This document shows positions 1 through 46,723 of a stretch of 64,000 nucleotides of DNA, one piece after another. Positions within the stretch are counted from its first letter, which is position 1, and every line of letters begins with the position of its first letter. The DNA comes from Aequorivita vladivostokensis (GTDB lineage Bacteria > Bacteroidota > Bacteroidia > Flavobacteriales > Flavobacteriaceae). The position numbers and the translations under genes are program-made. A model generated the notes under the pieces. It searched no databases and had not been told where the DNA came from. It worked only from the letters and a program-made list of their open reading frames with translations. The DNA lies in contig NZ_JSVU01000009.1 in assembly GCF_000952855.1 (NCBI RefSeq), positions 1 through 64,000 of the forward strand. The letters are read 5' to 3'.

Positions 1-292
1 TACAGAGGGGCGATTAAGGAACAGTATGTGTGTGAACGTCTATGAGAATCCCCATGCGGAGCGGATCAATGGCACTATAAAGAACAACTATCTGAAAGGA
101 TATAACCCCATAGGTTTTGAAGGATTAGTAAGAAGTTTAAATAAAGCAGTATATATGTACAACCATGAAAAACCCCATAGTTCAATCAACCATAAAACTC
201 CCGTACAATTTGAAAAGGAAATAAAAATGAAAAAAGAATTAGTAACTTTAAATTAAATAACCAACTTCAAAAAAGGTCAACCTTATTTAGTA
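1..292 (+). mobile_element. IS3-family insertion sequence, right end (truncated by window start)
   Basis: The 3' end of an IS3-type element: the C-terminal part of the transposase reaches its stop at 256. A short non-coding tail follows that contains AAGGT-CA-ACCTT, a small palindrome at about 274-285 that may belong to the terminal inverted repeat. The exact boundary cannot be set because the left end is outside the window; 292 is an estimate. The heptamer repeat block starts directly after it. Confidence 0.65.
2..256 (+). CDS. IS3-family transposase (OrfB), C-terminal fragment
   Basis: The reading frame is open from base 2, so the protein continues upstream of the window; the ATG at 26 is internal. 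The visible part carries the end of the rve integrase core: the NPHAERINGTIKNNYL stretch contains the last acidic residue of the DDE triad (E in AERINGTIK). It is followed by the typical tail LNKAVYMYNHEKPHSSINHKTP, in which YN..RPH-like residues are shared by IS3/IS150 transposases. No frameshift is seen in this part, so the copy may be intact. Its activity cannot be judged from the fragment. Confidence 0.85.
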   Translation, partial: TEGRLRNSMCVNVYENPHAERINGTIKNNYLKGYNPIGFEGLVRSLNKAVYMYNHEKPHSSINHKTPVQFEKEIKMKKELVTLN

Positions 293-296
293 CTCT

Positions 297-820
297 ACAC
301 TCTACAAACCACAAACCTGCAACCTGCAACCATCAACCTGCAACCTACACCCTACAACCCTCAAACCTCAAACCTCAAGCCTCAAACCTAAAACCTGAAA
401 CCTGAAACCTACACCCTACAACCTACACCCTACCACCTGCAACCTGAAACCTGAAACCTGAAACCTGAAACCTACAACTTGCAACCACAAACCACAAATC
501 ACAAACCTGCAACCTGCAACCATCAACCTGCAACCTACACCCTACAACCCTCAAACCTCAAACCTCAAGCCTCAAACCTAAAACCTGAAACCTACACCCT
601 ACAACCTACACCCTACCACCTGCAACCTGAAACCTGAAACCTGAAACCTGAAACCTACAACTTGCAACCACAAACCACAAATCACAAACCTGCAACCTGC
701 AACCTGCAACCTGCAACCTACACCCTACAACCCTCAAACCTCAAACCTCAAACCTCAAACCTAAAACCTAAAACCTGCAACCTACAACCTGCAACCTGCA
801 ACCACAAACAATCAACCCCC
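297..820. repeat. Heptanucleotide repeat array with ~185-bp higher-order units
   Basis: About 520 bp are built almost entirely of 7-bp units of the type AAACCTG, CAACCTG, ACCCTAC and CTCAAAC. On top of this lies a higher-order repeat. The block starting ACAAACCTGC at 311 recurs at 501 (offset 190) and at 684 (offset 183). The 7-bp difference is one AAACCTG unit missing from the second copy. On the minus strand every unit carries a GG step, giving GG runs every 7 nt. No real gene lies in it; plus-strand open frames here are simply translated repeats. The 3' end of the neighbouring minus-strand gene (812) runs into it. Confidence 0.9.
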
Positions 821-15020: not shown

Positions 15021-15027
15021 TGGGATT

Positions 15028-15150
15028 GACGATTTTAGATTTACGATTTACGATAGACGATTTACGATTTACGACTAACCATTAACGATTGTTGATTTCA
15101 GTATTTTGGGTTAAGAGCCGTGAACACTTAACTCTTAACTCTTAACTCTT
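15028..15150. repeat. Two heptad repeat tracts upstream of dnaE
   Basis: 15028-15097 is ten consecutive 7-bp units with consensus TACGATT (GACGATT, TTAGATT, TACGATT and so on). 15123-15150 is four units AACACTT, AACTCTT, AACTCTT, AACTCTT. Their sequence is unrelated to the array at 297-820 but the 7-bp period is the same. No gene is present in 15021-15276. Confidence 0.8.
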
Positions 15151-15220
15151 CAGCGAGGAAGTAAAAATAGAAAAACCAACAGCTTTTGGGAAGTTAAATT
15201 ATCACGAGTTGTTCACAATA

Positions 15221-17989: not shown

Positions 17990-18067
17990 ATGAGGTATGA
18001 GGTTTGAGGAGATTGGAATTCTATAAAATCAATAAAAACTCAACCCGCCACACACCTCATACCTCAT
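17990..18067. repeat. Inverted heptad repeats between rimM and trmN6
   Basis: ATGAGGTATGAGG (17990-18002) is the exact inverse of CCTCATACCTCAT (18055-18067). Both arms are made of 7-bp units and are separated by 52 bp. The same ATGAGG core occurs inside leuS at 45785-45858. Confidence 0.8.
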
Positions 18068-43702: not shown

Positions 43703-46700
43703 TTAACCCACGATATTTACGATTTTTCCGGGCACGATAATTACCTTTTTCGGCGTGCGCCCCTCTAAATACTGGGCTGTTTTTTCATGTGCCATTACGG
43801 CAGATTCTATTTCCTCCTTGCTTAAATCGAGTGGCAGTTCCAACGTAAAACGCATTTTTCCGTTAAAGGAGATTGGATATTCCTTGCTGCTTTCTACCAA
43901 ATATTTCTCCTCAAATTTTGGAAAAGGTGCTGTGGAAATACTTTCCGAATGGCCCAATTTCTCCCAAAGCTCTTCTGCAATGTGTGGCGCGTAAGGCGAA
44001 ATTAATATTGCCAACGGCTCCAAAACCTCACGTGAATTGCATTTTTCTGCCGAAAGCTCGTTCACCGCAATCATAAAAGAGGAAACCGAAGTATTAAAAC
44101 TAAAGTTCTCAATATCTTCCTGTACTTTTTTAATGGTTTTGTGAAGTGTTTTCAAGGCCTCCCCCTGCCCCTCCGAAGGAGGGGTGTCCGTTACGTAAAA
44201 GCTTTCATCCGGCCCGGAATGGTACAATTTCCAAAGTTTTTTTAGGAAACCATGTACGCCCGTAATCCCGGCGGTGTTCCACGGTTTTGCCTGTTCCAGC
44301 GGACCAAGGAACATCTCGTACATTCTTAAAGTATCTGCGCCATATTGGTTGCAAATATCATCGGGGTTTACCACGTTATATTTGCTTTTGGACATTTTTT
44401 CTACTTCTCTCGAAACTTTGAAAGTGCCGTCTTCTTCGGTTATAAATTCTGCGTTTTTATATTCTTCTCGCCAATTTTTAAAGGTTTCAAAATTTAATTC
44501 ATTATGAATATTAACAAATGAAACATCAGAATGAATTTGATTTATATCAAAAGTTATATTCCCAATTTCAATTTTATTGAGATAATTATTATTTAGAAGA
44601 AAATCTTTTATAAAATTTTGGTTATGCACTTTAGATGAACTGATAAATAATGTTGGTATTTTATCAGTCTTTTTTAAAATATCAAATATAATCTCGTTAG
44701 CATTTTCTCCCCAAGCAGAAACATTGAAACTTACTCTATTCACAAACGCACTCTCCCCCAAAATCATCCCTTGGTTTATCAGCTTTTTAAAAGGTTCGTC
44801 CACGGGCACCAAGCCGCGGTCGTGCATAAATTTTACCCAAAAACGGCTGTACAACAAATGGCCCGTGGCGTGCTCGCTTCCTCCAATATACAGATCCACG
44901 TTTTTCCAATAGTTTAATGCTTCCTTTGAGGCGAAAACCTCATCGCGTTTTTCGGCTTCCATATATCGGAAAAAGTACCAACTGCTTCCCGCCCAACCTG
45001 GCATCGTATTCAATTCCAAAGGAAAAACGGTTTTATGGTCAATCAAATCGTTGCTGACCACTTCCTTGGTTTCGGTATTCCACGCCCAAACATCGGCACG
45101 GCCCAACGGCGGTTCGCCTTCTTCGGTTGGTAGGTATTTTTCAACCTCGGGGAGGCGCAACGGCAAACATTCCGTAGGGATAATTTGCGGCATTCCATCT
45201 TTGTAATAAATCGGGAACGGCTCGCCCCAATAGCGCTGACGACTAAAAACAGCATCGCGCAAACGGTAATTTATCTTTCCTTTTCCAACACCTTTTTCTT
45301 CCAAAGCCGCGATTATTTTTTCCGTGGCTTCGGAATAGTTTAAATCATTTAGAAAATCACTATTTGTGATAATTGTATTTTCCTTATCGGAATAGGCTTC
45401 CTCAGAAATATCCGCATCCTTAAAAATATTCGGAATTGGCAGATTGAAATGTTTCGCAAAATCGTAATCGCGCTGGTCGCCACAGGGAACGCTCATTACC
45501 GCGCCTGTGCCGTAGCCCGCCAAAACGTAATCGCCAATCCAAATTGGGATGGGTTCCTTTGTAAATGGATGCTCGGCATACGCGCCCGTGAAAACACCTG
45601 TAATGTGCTTTACATCGGCCATTCGTTCGCGCTCGCTGCGTTTTGCGGTGGCTTCCACATACTTTTCAACTGCATCTTTCTGTTCGGCAGTGGTGATTTT
45701 TGAAACCAAATCGTGCTCCGGCGCCAAAACCATAAAACTTACTCCGAAGATGGTATCGGGGCGGGTTGTGAAAACTTCAATTTCGAGGGATGAGGGATGA
45801 GGTATGTGGGATGAGGTTTCGCCAACTCCTAACTCATAACTCATAACTCTAAACTTTACGCTCGCTCCTTTGCTTCTACCAATCCAATTGGTTTGCGAAT
45901 CCTTCAAAGGTTGCGGCCAGTCTATTTTATCAAGTCCGTCAAGTAAACGCTGGGCGTAGGCTGTGATGCGCATACTCCACTGTTTCATCTTTTTTCGCAC
46001 AACCGGATAGCCACCGCGTTCAGAAACGCCGTTTACTATTTCATCATTCGCCAAAACGGTTCCCAGATGCGGGCACCAGTTTACTTCGGTTTCGGCTAAA
46101 TATGTCAATCTATATTTTAGAAGAATTTCCTGCTTTTTCGTTTCAGAAAAATCCAGCCATTCCGAAGCGGTGAAATGCGCAATTCCCTCATCGCAGACTG
46201 CATTTACGTGTACATTTCCTTCCGAAGAAAAAATGGCACGCAGTTCTTCAATGGAACGGGCTTTGTCTGCATCTTTATCATACCAACTTTCAAAAAGCTG
46301 TATGAAAATCCACTGTGTCCATTTGTAATATTCAGGATTTGAGGTACGCACCTCGCGGCTCCAATCGAAGGAAAACCCTATTTTGTCAAGCTGTTCGCGG
46401 TAACGGGCAATATTTTCTTCAGTAGTTTTTGCAGGATGTTGCCCCGTTTGGATGGCATATTGCTCTGCCGGAAGTCCGAAAGAATCATAGCCTTGCGGAT
46501 GCAGCACATTATATCCTTGGTGGCGTTTGTAGCGCGCATAAATATCACTGGCAATGTACCCCAGCGGATGCCCAACGTGCAAGCCCGCGCCGGACGGATA
46601 GGGAAACATATCCAAAACATAATATTTCGGTTTGTCGCTTTTGTTCTCGGCCTTAAAAGTTTGATTTTCGGCCCAATGTTTTTGCCACTTTGCTTCTATC

Positions 46701-46723
46701 TCGTTGAAGTGATATTTGCCCAT
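43703..46723 (-). CDS. leuS: Leucyl-tRNA synthetase with repeat-derived insertions
   Basis: 1006 residues from ATG 46723 (MGKYHFNEIEAKWQKHW). A longer frame to 46960 is rejected because it runs into the UbiA gene and because a -7 box TAAATTTG lies at 46771-46778. The HIGH motif is PYPSGAGLHVGHPLGY (about 45), the editing domain has TTRPDTIFG (about 320), and KMSKSKYN lies near 775. It is longer than the roughly 930-950 residues I recall for relatives. One cause is a heptad-repeat insert (residues about 289-313, just before TTRPDT), another an A+T-rich stretch at about 660-740. A palindrome-coded TPPSEGQGE lies at about 846-853. Core motifs are intact, so it should be active. Confidence 0.95.
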   Translation of the reverse strand: MGKYHFNEIEAKWQKHWAENQTFKAENKSDKPKYYVLDMFPYPSGAGLHVGHPLGYIASDIYARYKRHQGYNVLHPQGYDSFGLPAEQYAIQTGQHPAKTTEENIARYREQLDKIGFSFDWSREVRTSNPEYYKWTQWIFIQLFESWYDKDADKARSIEELRAIFSSEGNVHVNAVCDEGIAHFTASEWLDFSETKKQEILLKYRLTYLAETEVNWCPHLGTVLANDEIVNGVSERGGYPVVRKKMKQWSMRITAYAQRLLDGLDKIDWPQPLKDSQTNWIGRSKGASVKFRVMSYELGVGETSSHIPHPSSLEIEVFTTRPDTIFGVSFMVLAPEHDLVSKITTAEQKDAVEKYVEATAKRSERERMADVKHITGVFTGAYAEHPFTKEPIPIWIGDYVLAGYGTGAVMSVPCGDQRDYDFAKHFNLPIPNIFKDADISEEAYSDKENTIITNSDFLNDLNYSEATEKIIAALEEKGVGKGKINYRLRDAVFSRQRYWGEPFPIYYKDGMPQIIPTECLPLRLPEVEKYLPTEEGEPPLGRADVWAWNTETKEVVSNDLIDHKTVFPLELNTMPGWAGSSWYFFRYMEAEKRDEVFASKEALNYWKNVDLYIGGSEHATGHLLYSRFWVKFMHDRGLVPVDEPFKKLINQGMILGESAFVNRVSFNVSAWGENANEIIFDILKKTDKIPTLFISSSKVHNQNFIKDFLLNNNYLNKIEIGNITFDINQIHSDVSFVNIHNELNFETFKNWREEYKNAEFITEEDGTFKVSREVEKMSKSKYNVVNPDDICNQYGADTLRMYEMFLGPLEQAKPWNTAGITGVHGFLKKLWKLYHSGPDESFYVTDTPPSEGQGEALKTLHKTIKKVQEDIENFSFNTSVSSFMIAVNELSAEKCNSREVLEPLAILISPYAPHIAEELWEKLGHSESISTAPFPKFEEKYLVESSKEYPISFNGKMRFTLELPLDLSKEEIESAVMAHEKTAQYLEGRTPKKVIIVPGKIVNIVG
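44168..44184. repeat. Palindrome inside leuS
   Basis: CCCCTCC-gaa-GGAGGGG is a perfect 7-bp-arm palindrome in an A+T-rich gene, translated as the Pro/Gly/Glu-rich loop TDTPPSEGQGEA before LKTLHKT. It resembles the palindrome in trmN6. Confidence 0.75.
45785..45858. repeat. Heptad repeat array inside leuS, translated in frame
   Basis: Five units (GAGGGAT, GAGGGAT, GAGGTAT, GTGGGAT, GAGGTTT; 45785-45819), four bases, then five units (AACTCCT, AACTCAT, AACTCAT, AACTCTA, AACTTTA; 45824-45858). The two halves are roughly inverse to each other. On the leuS strand it encodes RVMSYELGVGETSSHIPHPS between VKF and IEVFTTRPDT. Confidence 0.88.

Follow-up and report, generated by a model that had tools for sequence, protein, structure and literature searches.

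A leucyl-tRNA synthetase loop in Aequorivita vladivostokensis holds a decayed heptad array and is a likely landing pad for interchangeable repeats

The leucyl-tRNA synthetase gene (leuS) of Aequorivita vladivostokensis contains, in frame, a decayed array of 7-nt repeats, and relatives of this bacterium hold different elements at the same site. We consider it likely that the array has lodged in a permissive loop of the enzyme (LeuRS) that acts as a recurrent landing pad for interchangeable repeats. The original prediction, made from the letters of a 64,000-nt stretch of this genome (the window), was right in kind in reporting a heptad insert here, and its meaning is wider, as the permissive loop is reused by interchangeable repeats. 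Its interpretation of one repeat spreading into coding DNA was too narrow, because unrelated elements of several kinds enter this site, and recG and metH have comparable sites. The best reading treats the heptads as one among several repeats that can replace each other and that pass a filter of reading frame and surface exposure. The features of the leuS site are:

43703..46723, minus strand: leuS, leucyl-tRNA synthetase, 1,006 aa from the ATG at 46723 (the list of open reading frames uses an upstream TTG start).
45824..45858, minus strand: first half of the array, 5' in the mRNA, with heptads AGTTTAG AGTTATG AGTTATG AGTTAGG AGTT.
45785..45816, minus strand: second half of the array, with CCTCATC-type heptads, the reverse complement of ATGAGG units.
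45782..45850, minus strand: codons of the loop, LeuRS residues 292-314 in the AlphaFold model.

The whole array occupies positions 45785-45858 in frame on the minus strand, and its place, frame and inverse arrangement, as first described, were borne out by the open reading frame and by TRF. The latter finds 4.6 copies of GAGGGAT at 45785-45816 (84% matches) and 3.7 copies of AACTCAT at 45824-45849 (94%), that is, about eight imperfect units rather than the ten perfect ones initially counted. At lag 7, leuS reaches 24 of 28 at best; 300 dinucleotide shuffles peaked at 19, and the real gene's best scores at lags 4-6 and 8-12 are 14-16. The array is translated as RVMSYELGVGETSSHIPHPSSLE, 23 residues flanked by VKF and IEVFTTRPDT, close to the 24 or so expected. 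A tandem of AGTTATG has TGA in frame and, as read from the sequence, the fourth unit of the array deviates exactly there. The window copy barely folds back (z -0.98; two other leuS stretches used as controls gave 0.48 and -0.76) and has the form of an inverted (fold-back) heptad array that has decayed. At the gathering threshold, Rfam gave zero matches across five loci (L026, L022, L032, L120 and L151).

In the AlphaFold model of LeuRS (mean pLDDT 70.2, pTM 0.65), strands at residues 283-294 and 314-319 bracket the loop, and residues 296-308 have pLDDT below 50. The array residues are thereby predicted to form a poorly ordered, exposed loop, in line with the surface position first proposed. 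The loop falls within the PF13603 editing-domain match (residues 279-474; PF00133 and PF08264 also match), at the entry of the LeuRS editing domain, and the aligned stretch of Thermus LeuRS is 15 residues shorter.

Heptad arrays are abundant elsewhere in this genome, and three further arrays of the window illustrate them:

17990..18067, no strand assigned: intergenic array of heptads that folds back and matches the leuS copy in kind (TRF and folding).
15024..15157, no strand assigned: heptad array with GATTTAC and AACTCTT words, directly upstream of the start codon of a dnaE-like open reading frame.
291..816, no strand assigned: long array of degenerate heptads in which a 183-bp higher-order repeat is present (TRF).

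The first of these had been named as a second copy of the leuS repeat; it is indeed such an array and has kept its fold-back (z -4.98). By eye, the array at 291-816 consists of AACCTGC-type heptads and lies 3' of the end of an apparent transposase open reading frame. A 464-kb sample of the genome, made up of the window and 20 stretches (5 of the 20 picked for earlier hits), contains 42 lag-7 arrays versus 0-6 at lags 4-6 and 8-13, with 24 at the harmonic lag 14 and 5 at lag 15. Ten of the 42 lie mostly inside open reading frames of at least 100 aa and 32 do not, in a sample with a coding fraction of 0.89. These are tandem 7-nt units beyond chance, dispersed and mostly intergenic, as heptanucleotide repeats are, and their words vary between arrays. 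In the suggested genome-wide search for the heptad, the excess of the window's own word, ACTCATAACTCAT (up to one mismatch), was only modest (19 genome matches versus 8 for the reversed control, several of the 19 within one array). Two other insert types are likewise dispersed repeats by pattern count: AATTCAG heptads occur in 27 of the 28 genus genomes (334 matches, overlaps counted, versus 19 for the reversed control) and TTCGAGCGCAGTCGAGAA (up to one mismatch) in 26 of 28, with a reversed control of 0 in all. Genome G024 has 23 copies of TTCGAGCGCAGTCGAGAA, one of which is its leuS insert.

The relatives were compared through 45 loci of a relatives search (59 genomes searched, distant relatives lacking a locus being left out), 80 named loci (the best 80 of 586 matches) and four further loci, L299, L302, L309 and L311, added for holding a DUF559 nuclease domain. 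L058 gave no protein; 128 were obtained, and 119 after dropping 9 duplicates. Five LeuRS proteins of genus mates match proteins of named records completely or are contained in them, and four of these records are from Aequorivita (A. soesokkakensis, A. aurantiaca, A. sp. LH_M31 and A. vitellina). Because of the best-80 choice and the four loci added for DUF559, family-wide proportions do not equal prevalence; the count over the 28 Aequorivita genomes is free of this selection bias. With site classes sorted by hand, these 28 comprise 7 long heptad forms (remnants in L038 and L039), 8 length-neutral forms with ATTCAGA-type heptads, 8 with a whole in-frame DUF559 nuclease domain, 2 of TCGAG type, 2 empty sites (the ancestral short hairpin) and 1 unassigned. 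Among the 119 genes, 43 sites are empty, 18 hold length-neutral and 11 long heptad forms, 13 TCGA-type palindromes, 13 DUF559, 12 other long inserts, 4 the GTCATT type, 3 a G-rich palindrome and 2 the SELVSES type; the two heptad classes include 7 genes below the 70% lag-7 threshold (L030, L038, L039, L047, L055, L144 and L169).

Site content changes frequently. At least 59 changes among nine states are needed across the 119 genes (shuffled mean 70.1), as counted on a FastTree built without the site, a number that leuS recombination could inflate, and the segment from NWIG to TTRPDT ranges from 31 to 209 residues. Lag-7 arrays (70% over 28 nt) occur at the loop site in 22 of the 119 genes, which, together with the 42 arrays of the genome sample, upholds the proposal of a dispersed repeat lodged in coding DNA and tolerated in frame. 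Such arrays occur elsewhere in the leuS open reading frames (360,870 nt in total) in five genes, and lags 4-6 and 8-11 gave zero arrays anywhere in these frames. In L024, L034, L051, L055 and L135, CAGTTGT or ATTCAGA heptads lie within roughly residues 537-774 of the open frame; the loop is therefore not the sole tolerant place. A second variable LeuRS region lies at residues ~664-730, where up to 80 of the 128 proteins have at least five extra residues at one place.

The window's hairpin is also present in G000, G018 and G005, and a related one in G014 and G006. An insert specific to the genus or strain had been named as support for recent insertion; heptads do occur in the genus, but the hairpin is not strain-specific and the site is not heptad-specific. 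Nor do most relatives carry a heptad-free insert of the same length, the outcome that would have spoken against a heptad insertion; they have heptads, other repeats, the nuclease or the ancestral form. The long heptad forms of L020, L021, L023, L026 and L034 seem to be a single hairpin. It is near-perfect in the genus mate L026, with an open frame (z -6.79), and there pairs 26 of 33 positions in one ungapped register, compared with 20 of 33 in the window copy. A BLAST search of site segments against other loci was dropped as evidence, as 24 of 106 site segments and 165 of 1,190 same-gene controls matched, probably because leuS pieces had been left unmasked.

A dispersed repeat was probably copied into this site to give the array. 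The opposite view, that it arose locally by replication slippage in 7-nt steps and template switching from native hairpin codons, with no insertion at all, seems unlikely. It would explain why ATTCAGA-type heptads fill the hairpin without a change of length in 18 of the 119 genes, and this exact ancestral length is not predicted by simple insertion and counts against the landing-pad reading. The right-half units, ACTCATA-like in L026, have also switched word together between L026 and L020, and slippage has been proposed for heptanucleotide repeats, as cited in the available part of MacGregor 2015 (PMC4679880). Slippage cannot, however, make the DUF559, TCGA-type and SELVSES elements found at the same site, and the array at 17990-18067 has the fold-back form as well. 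Against the landing-pad reading, neither a target duplication nor an excision product was observed.

The most interesting passenger of the loop is the DUF559 nuclease unit. Its Pfam family, PF04480, is matched in 26 of the 28 genus genomes, many matches being weak and partial (the window genome has a weak partial match only), in 89 of 199 Flavobacteriaceae genomes from 198 genera, weak matches included, and in 222 of 395 genomes of a phylum sample. Full-length domains without an internal stop lie inside leuS in 8, recG in 6 and metH in 2 genus genomes. Where long frames of the family sample were read, motifs identified the hosts as leuS (16), hemD (6, at the start), recG (5), metH (4), hisD (1, at the end), an ilvA-like gene (1) and an intein-like protein (1); Pfam confirmed one host each for LeuRS, MetH, RecG, HisD and HemD. 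In G161, the leuS gene with DUF559 is split across two frames. Among 12 phylum-sample loci that were read, 4 are metH and several others are restriction-gene-like by eye. Seven loci of other families (L332, L333, L334, L336, L339, L341 and L346) have DUF559 with PSPxGRGxGEG-type stretches in long frames, and several of the L332-L346 loci resemble restriction genes. L310 (G174) encodes a phage-like protein with, by eye, an apparent intein containing a DUF559/Vsr-like nuclease.

In a tree of 69 DUF559 domains (114 columns; most forks weak, 11 of 66 inner branches starred), host labels need 8 changes, compared with a shuffled mean of 39.2; the recG (11) and hemD (6) domains each form one group, the metH domains (7) need 2 changes and the leuS domains (23) need 4. 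The ratio dN/dS is 0.04-0.14 in the 9 of 13 pairs of leuS inserts that were computable and 0.04-0.11 in 14 of 15 pairs of recG inserts, with 0.45 in the least diverged pair. From these comparisons, the inserts appear to group by host gene across genera and to be under purifying selection. Both the E-x-D and D-F patterns are retained in 45 of 49 in-frame copies. A flanking hairpin exceeds the 95th percentile of the control on the left of 31 and on the right of 13 of these 49. In the model of LeuRS from G012, ten-residue blocks across 321-430 have pLDDT 73-90, except 381-390 (55), and linkers 297-315 and 433-445 are below 50; with a pTM of 0.44, the model does not set the placement of DUF559 in LeuRS. 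Intein splicing takes motifs at both ends, including a His-Asn end. By eye, no splicing motifs and no His-Asn end were found at the DUF559 insert ends, which read, for example, PPLGARG or PSGEVGGA ahead of host residues.

The recG inserts of G005 and G012 have a dS of 0.05, versus 0.46 and 0.65 in the 250-codon flanks, and three pairs with G016 have 0.33-0.35 in the insert versus 0.65-1.11 in the flanks. The other 10-11 within-genus pairs have no lower insert dS, and between-genus pairs are mostly saturated. With a divergence about one tenth of that of its flanks, the G005/G012 insert looks like a case of non-splicing homing. In leuS, G012 is the neighbour of the window gene in the LeuRS tree (support 99) and has DUF559 in place of the heptads. 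Identity of the two genes in 45-nt bins is 89-98% in 11 of 12 upstream bins, with 78% beside the insert, and 91-100% in the first 8 downstream bins; of the later ones, one was not computed and the next are 49, 76 and 82%, so leuS is variable further downstream too. A co-conversion tract at the leuS DUF559 insert, hinted at by 240-nt windows, was dismissed by these bins; co-conversion of the flanks was not found, and at most the adjacent 45 nt upstream are altered in G012 leuS.

At sites where relatives have DUF559, recG of the window genome has a solo palindrome and metH a pair of them, in both cases without the nuclease. In members of the genus, a second metH site, from FGIFxAN to FRTLRQQ (L205-L226), carries AATTCAG heptads, CCAAATC heptads, TCGAG palindromes and G-rich palindromes, singly or nested. 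The leuS pattern is repeated in recG and metH. Tentatively, DUF559 units and GC-rich palindromes may together be non-splicing homing elements, translated as domains within LeuRS, RecG and MetH, at the end of HisD and at the start of HemD, with one host-gene site per lineage, and the sites that they reopen may admit heptads or palindromes.

A related scheme, compatible with the landing-pad reading, makes the DUF559 unit the mobile agent, with heptads filling or following sites that it opened or vacated. The replacement in the closely similar G012 gene would suit it, as would the solo palindrome and palindrome pair just described. It nevertheless appears quite improbable: the heptad hairpin is common to three near relatives of the window gene, so that G012 more likely gained the nuclease, and no DUF559-type palindrome was seen at the window leuS site. 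That the inserts are adaptive, tuning editing or translation through, for instance, an mRNA hairpin such as the strong one of L026, is highly improbable given that the hairpin is nearly lost in the window copy and that content differs in sister species over that wide range of segment lengths; a regulatory hairpin in the window copy was rejected, its stability not being beyond shuffles.

Under the landing-pad reading, one of the genome's many degenerate heptad arrays would have lodged in frame in the exposed LeuRS hairpin; the loop would tolerate foreign residues and would therefore serve as a landing pad. Heptads, small palindromes and DUF559 units, the last often bordered by GC-rich palindromes, would enter the loop, displace each other and decay, the survivors being insertions that keep the frame and lack stops. 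Survivorship, not DNA targeting, would then select the site for heptads. One essential-enzyme loop logs repeated swaps among unrelated repeats, many between close species, which makes the movement of bacterial heptad and palindromic repeats directly testable and points to nucleases that ride in frame within vital proteins and persist there unspliced.

Homing endonucleases and inteins are known as patchy nuclease inserts with empty alleles and grouping by target gene. The DUF559 inserts are likewise patchy, with target-specific groups and empty alleles at leuS, recG and metH; unlike inteins, they have no splicing motif and appear to stay in the host protein, so a homing reading, drawn from sequence comparison, would be of a non-splicing kind. 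REP/RAYT palindromes are small, GC-rich, dispersed hairpins, as are the small hairpins here, and PF01797 is found in 19 of the 28 genus genomes. In the open-licence literature, no paper was found on DUF559 together with leucyl-tRNA synthetase, and no DUF559 paper concerned in-frame inserts by its title or the start of its abstract; the available part of PMC4596501 lists a P. gingivalis element beside leuS. TAACTGA repeats, as described in the available part of MacGregor 2015 (PMC4679880), occur in Beggiatoaceae, Cyanobacteria and five Bacteroidetes including Aequorivita sublithincola; they are tandem, mostly intergenic and often mixed with other heptamers, with some in open reading frames, mainly toward protein ends. 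The present arrays are alike in being tandem 7-nt units, mostly intergenic with some in open reading frames, but they use many words (ATGAGG/AACTCAT in the window) in inverted halves, and within an essential enzyme they sit in an internal loop also used by other elements. Rickettsia palindromic elements, according to the sections of PMC10969869 consulted, form ~150-bp families fused in frame into unrelated metabolic genes. The leuS insert resembles them in being palindromic and in frame in a housekeeping gene (as in the L026 hairpin, the window copy being decayed), and differs from such families in that the site takes short arrays whose words differ, and also elements unrelated to one another, one kind of which carries a nuclease.
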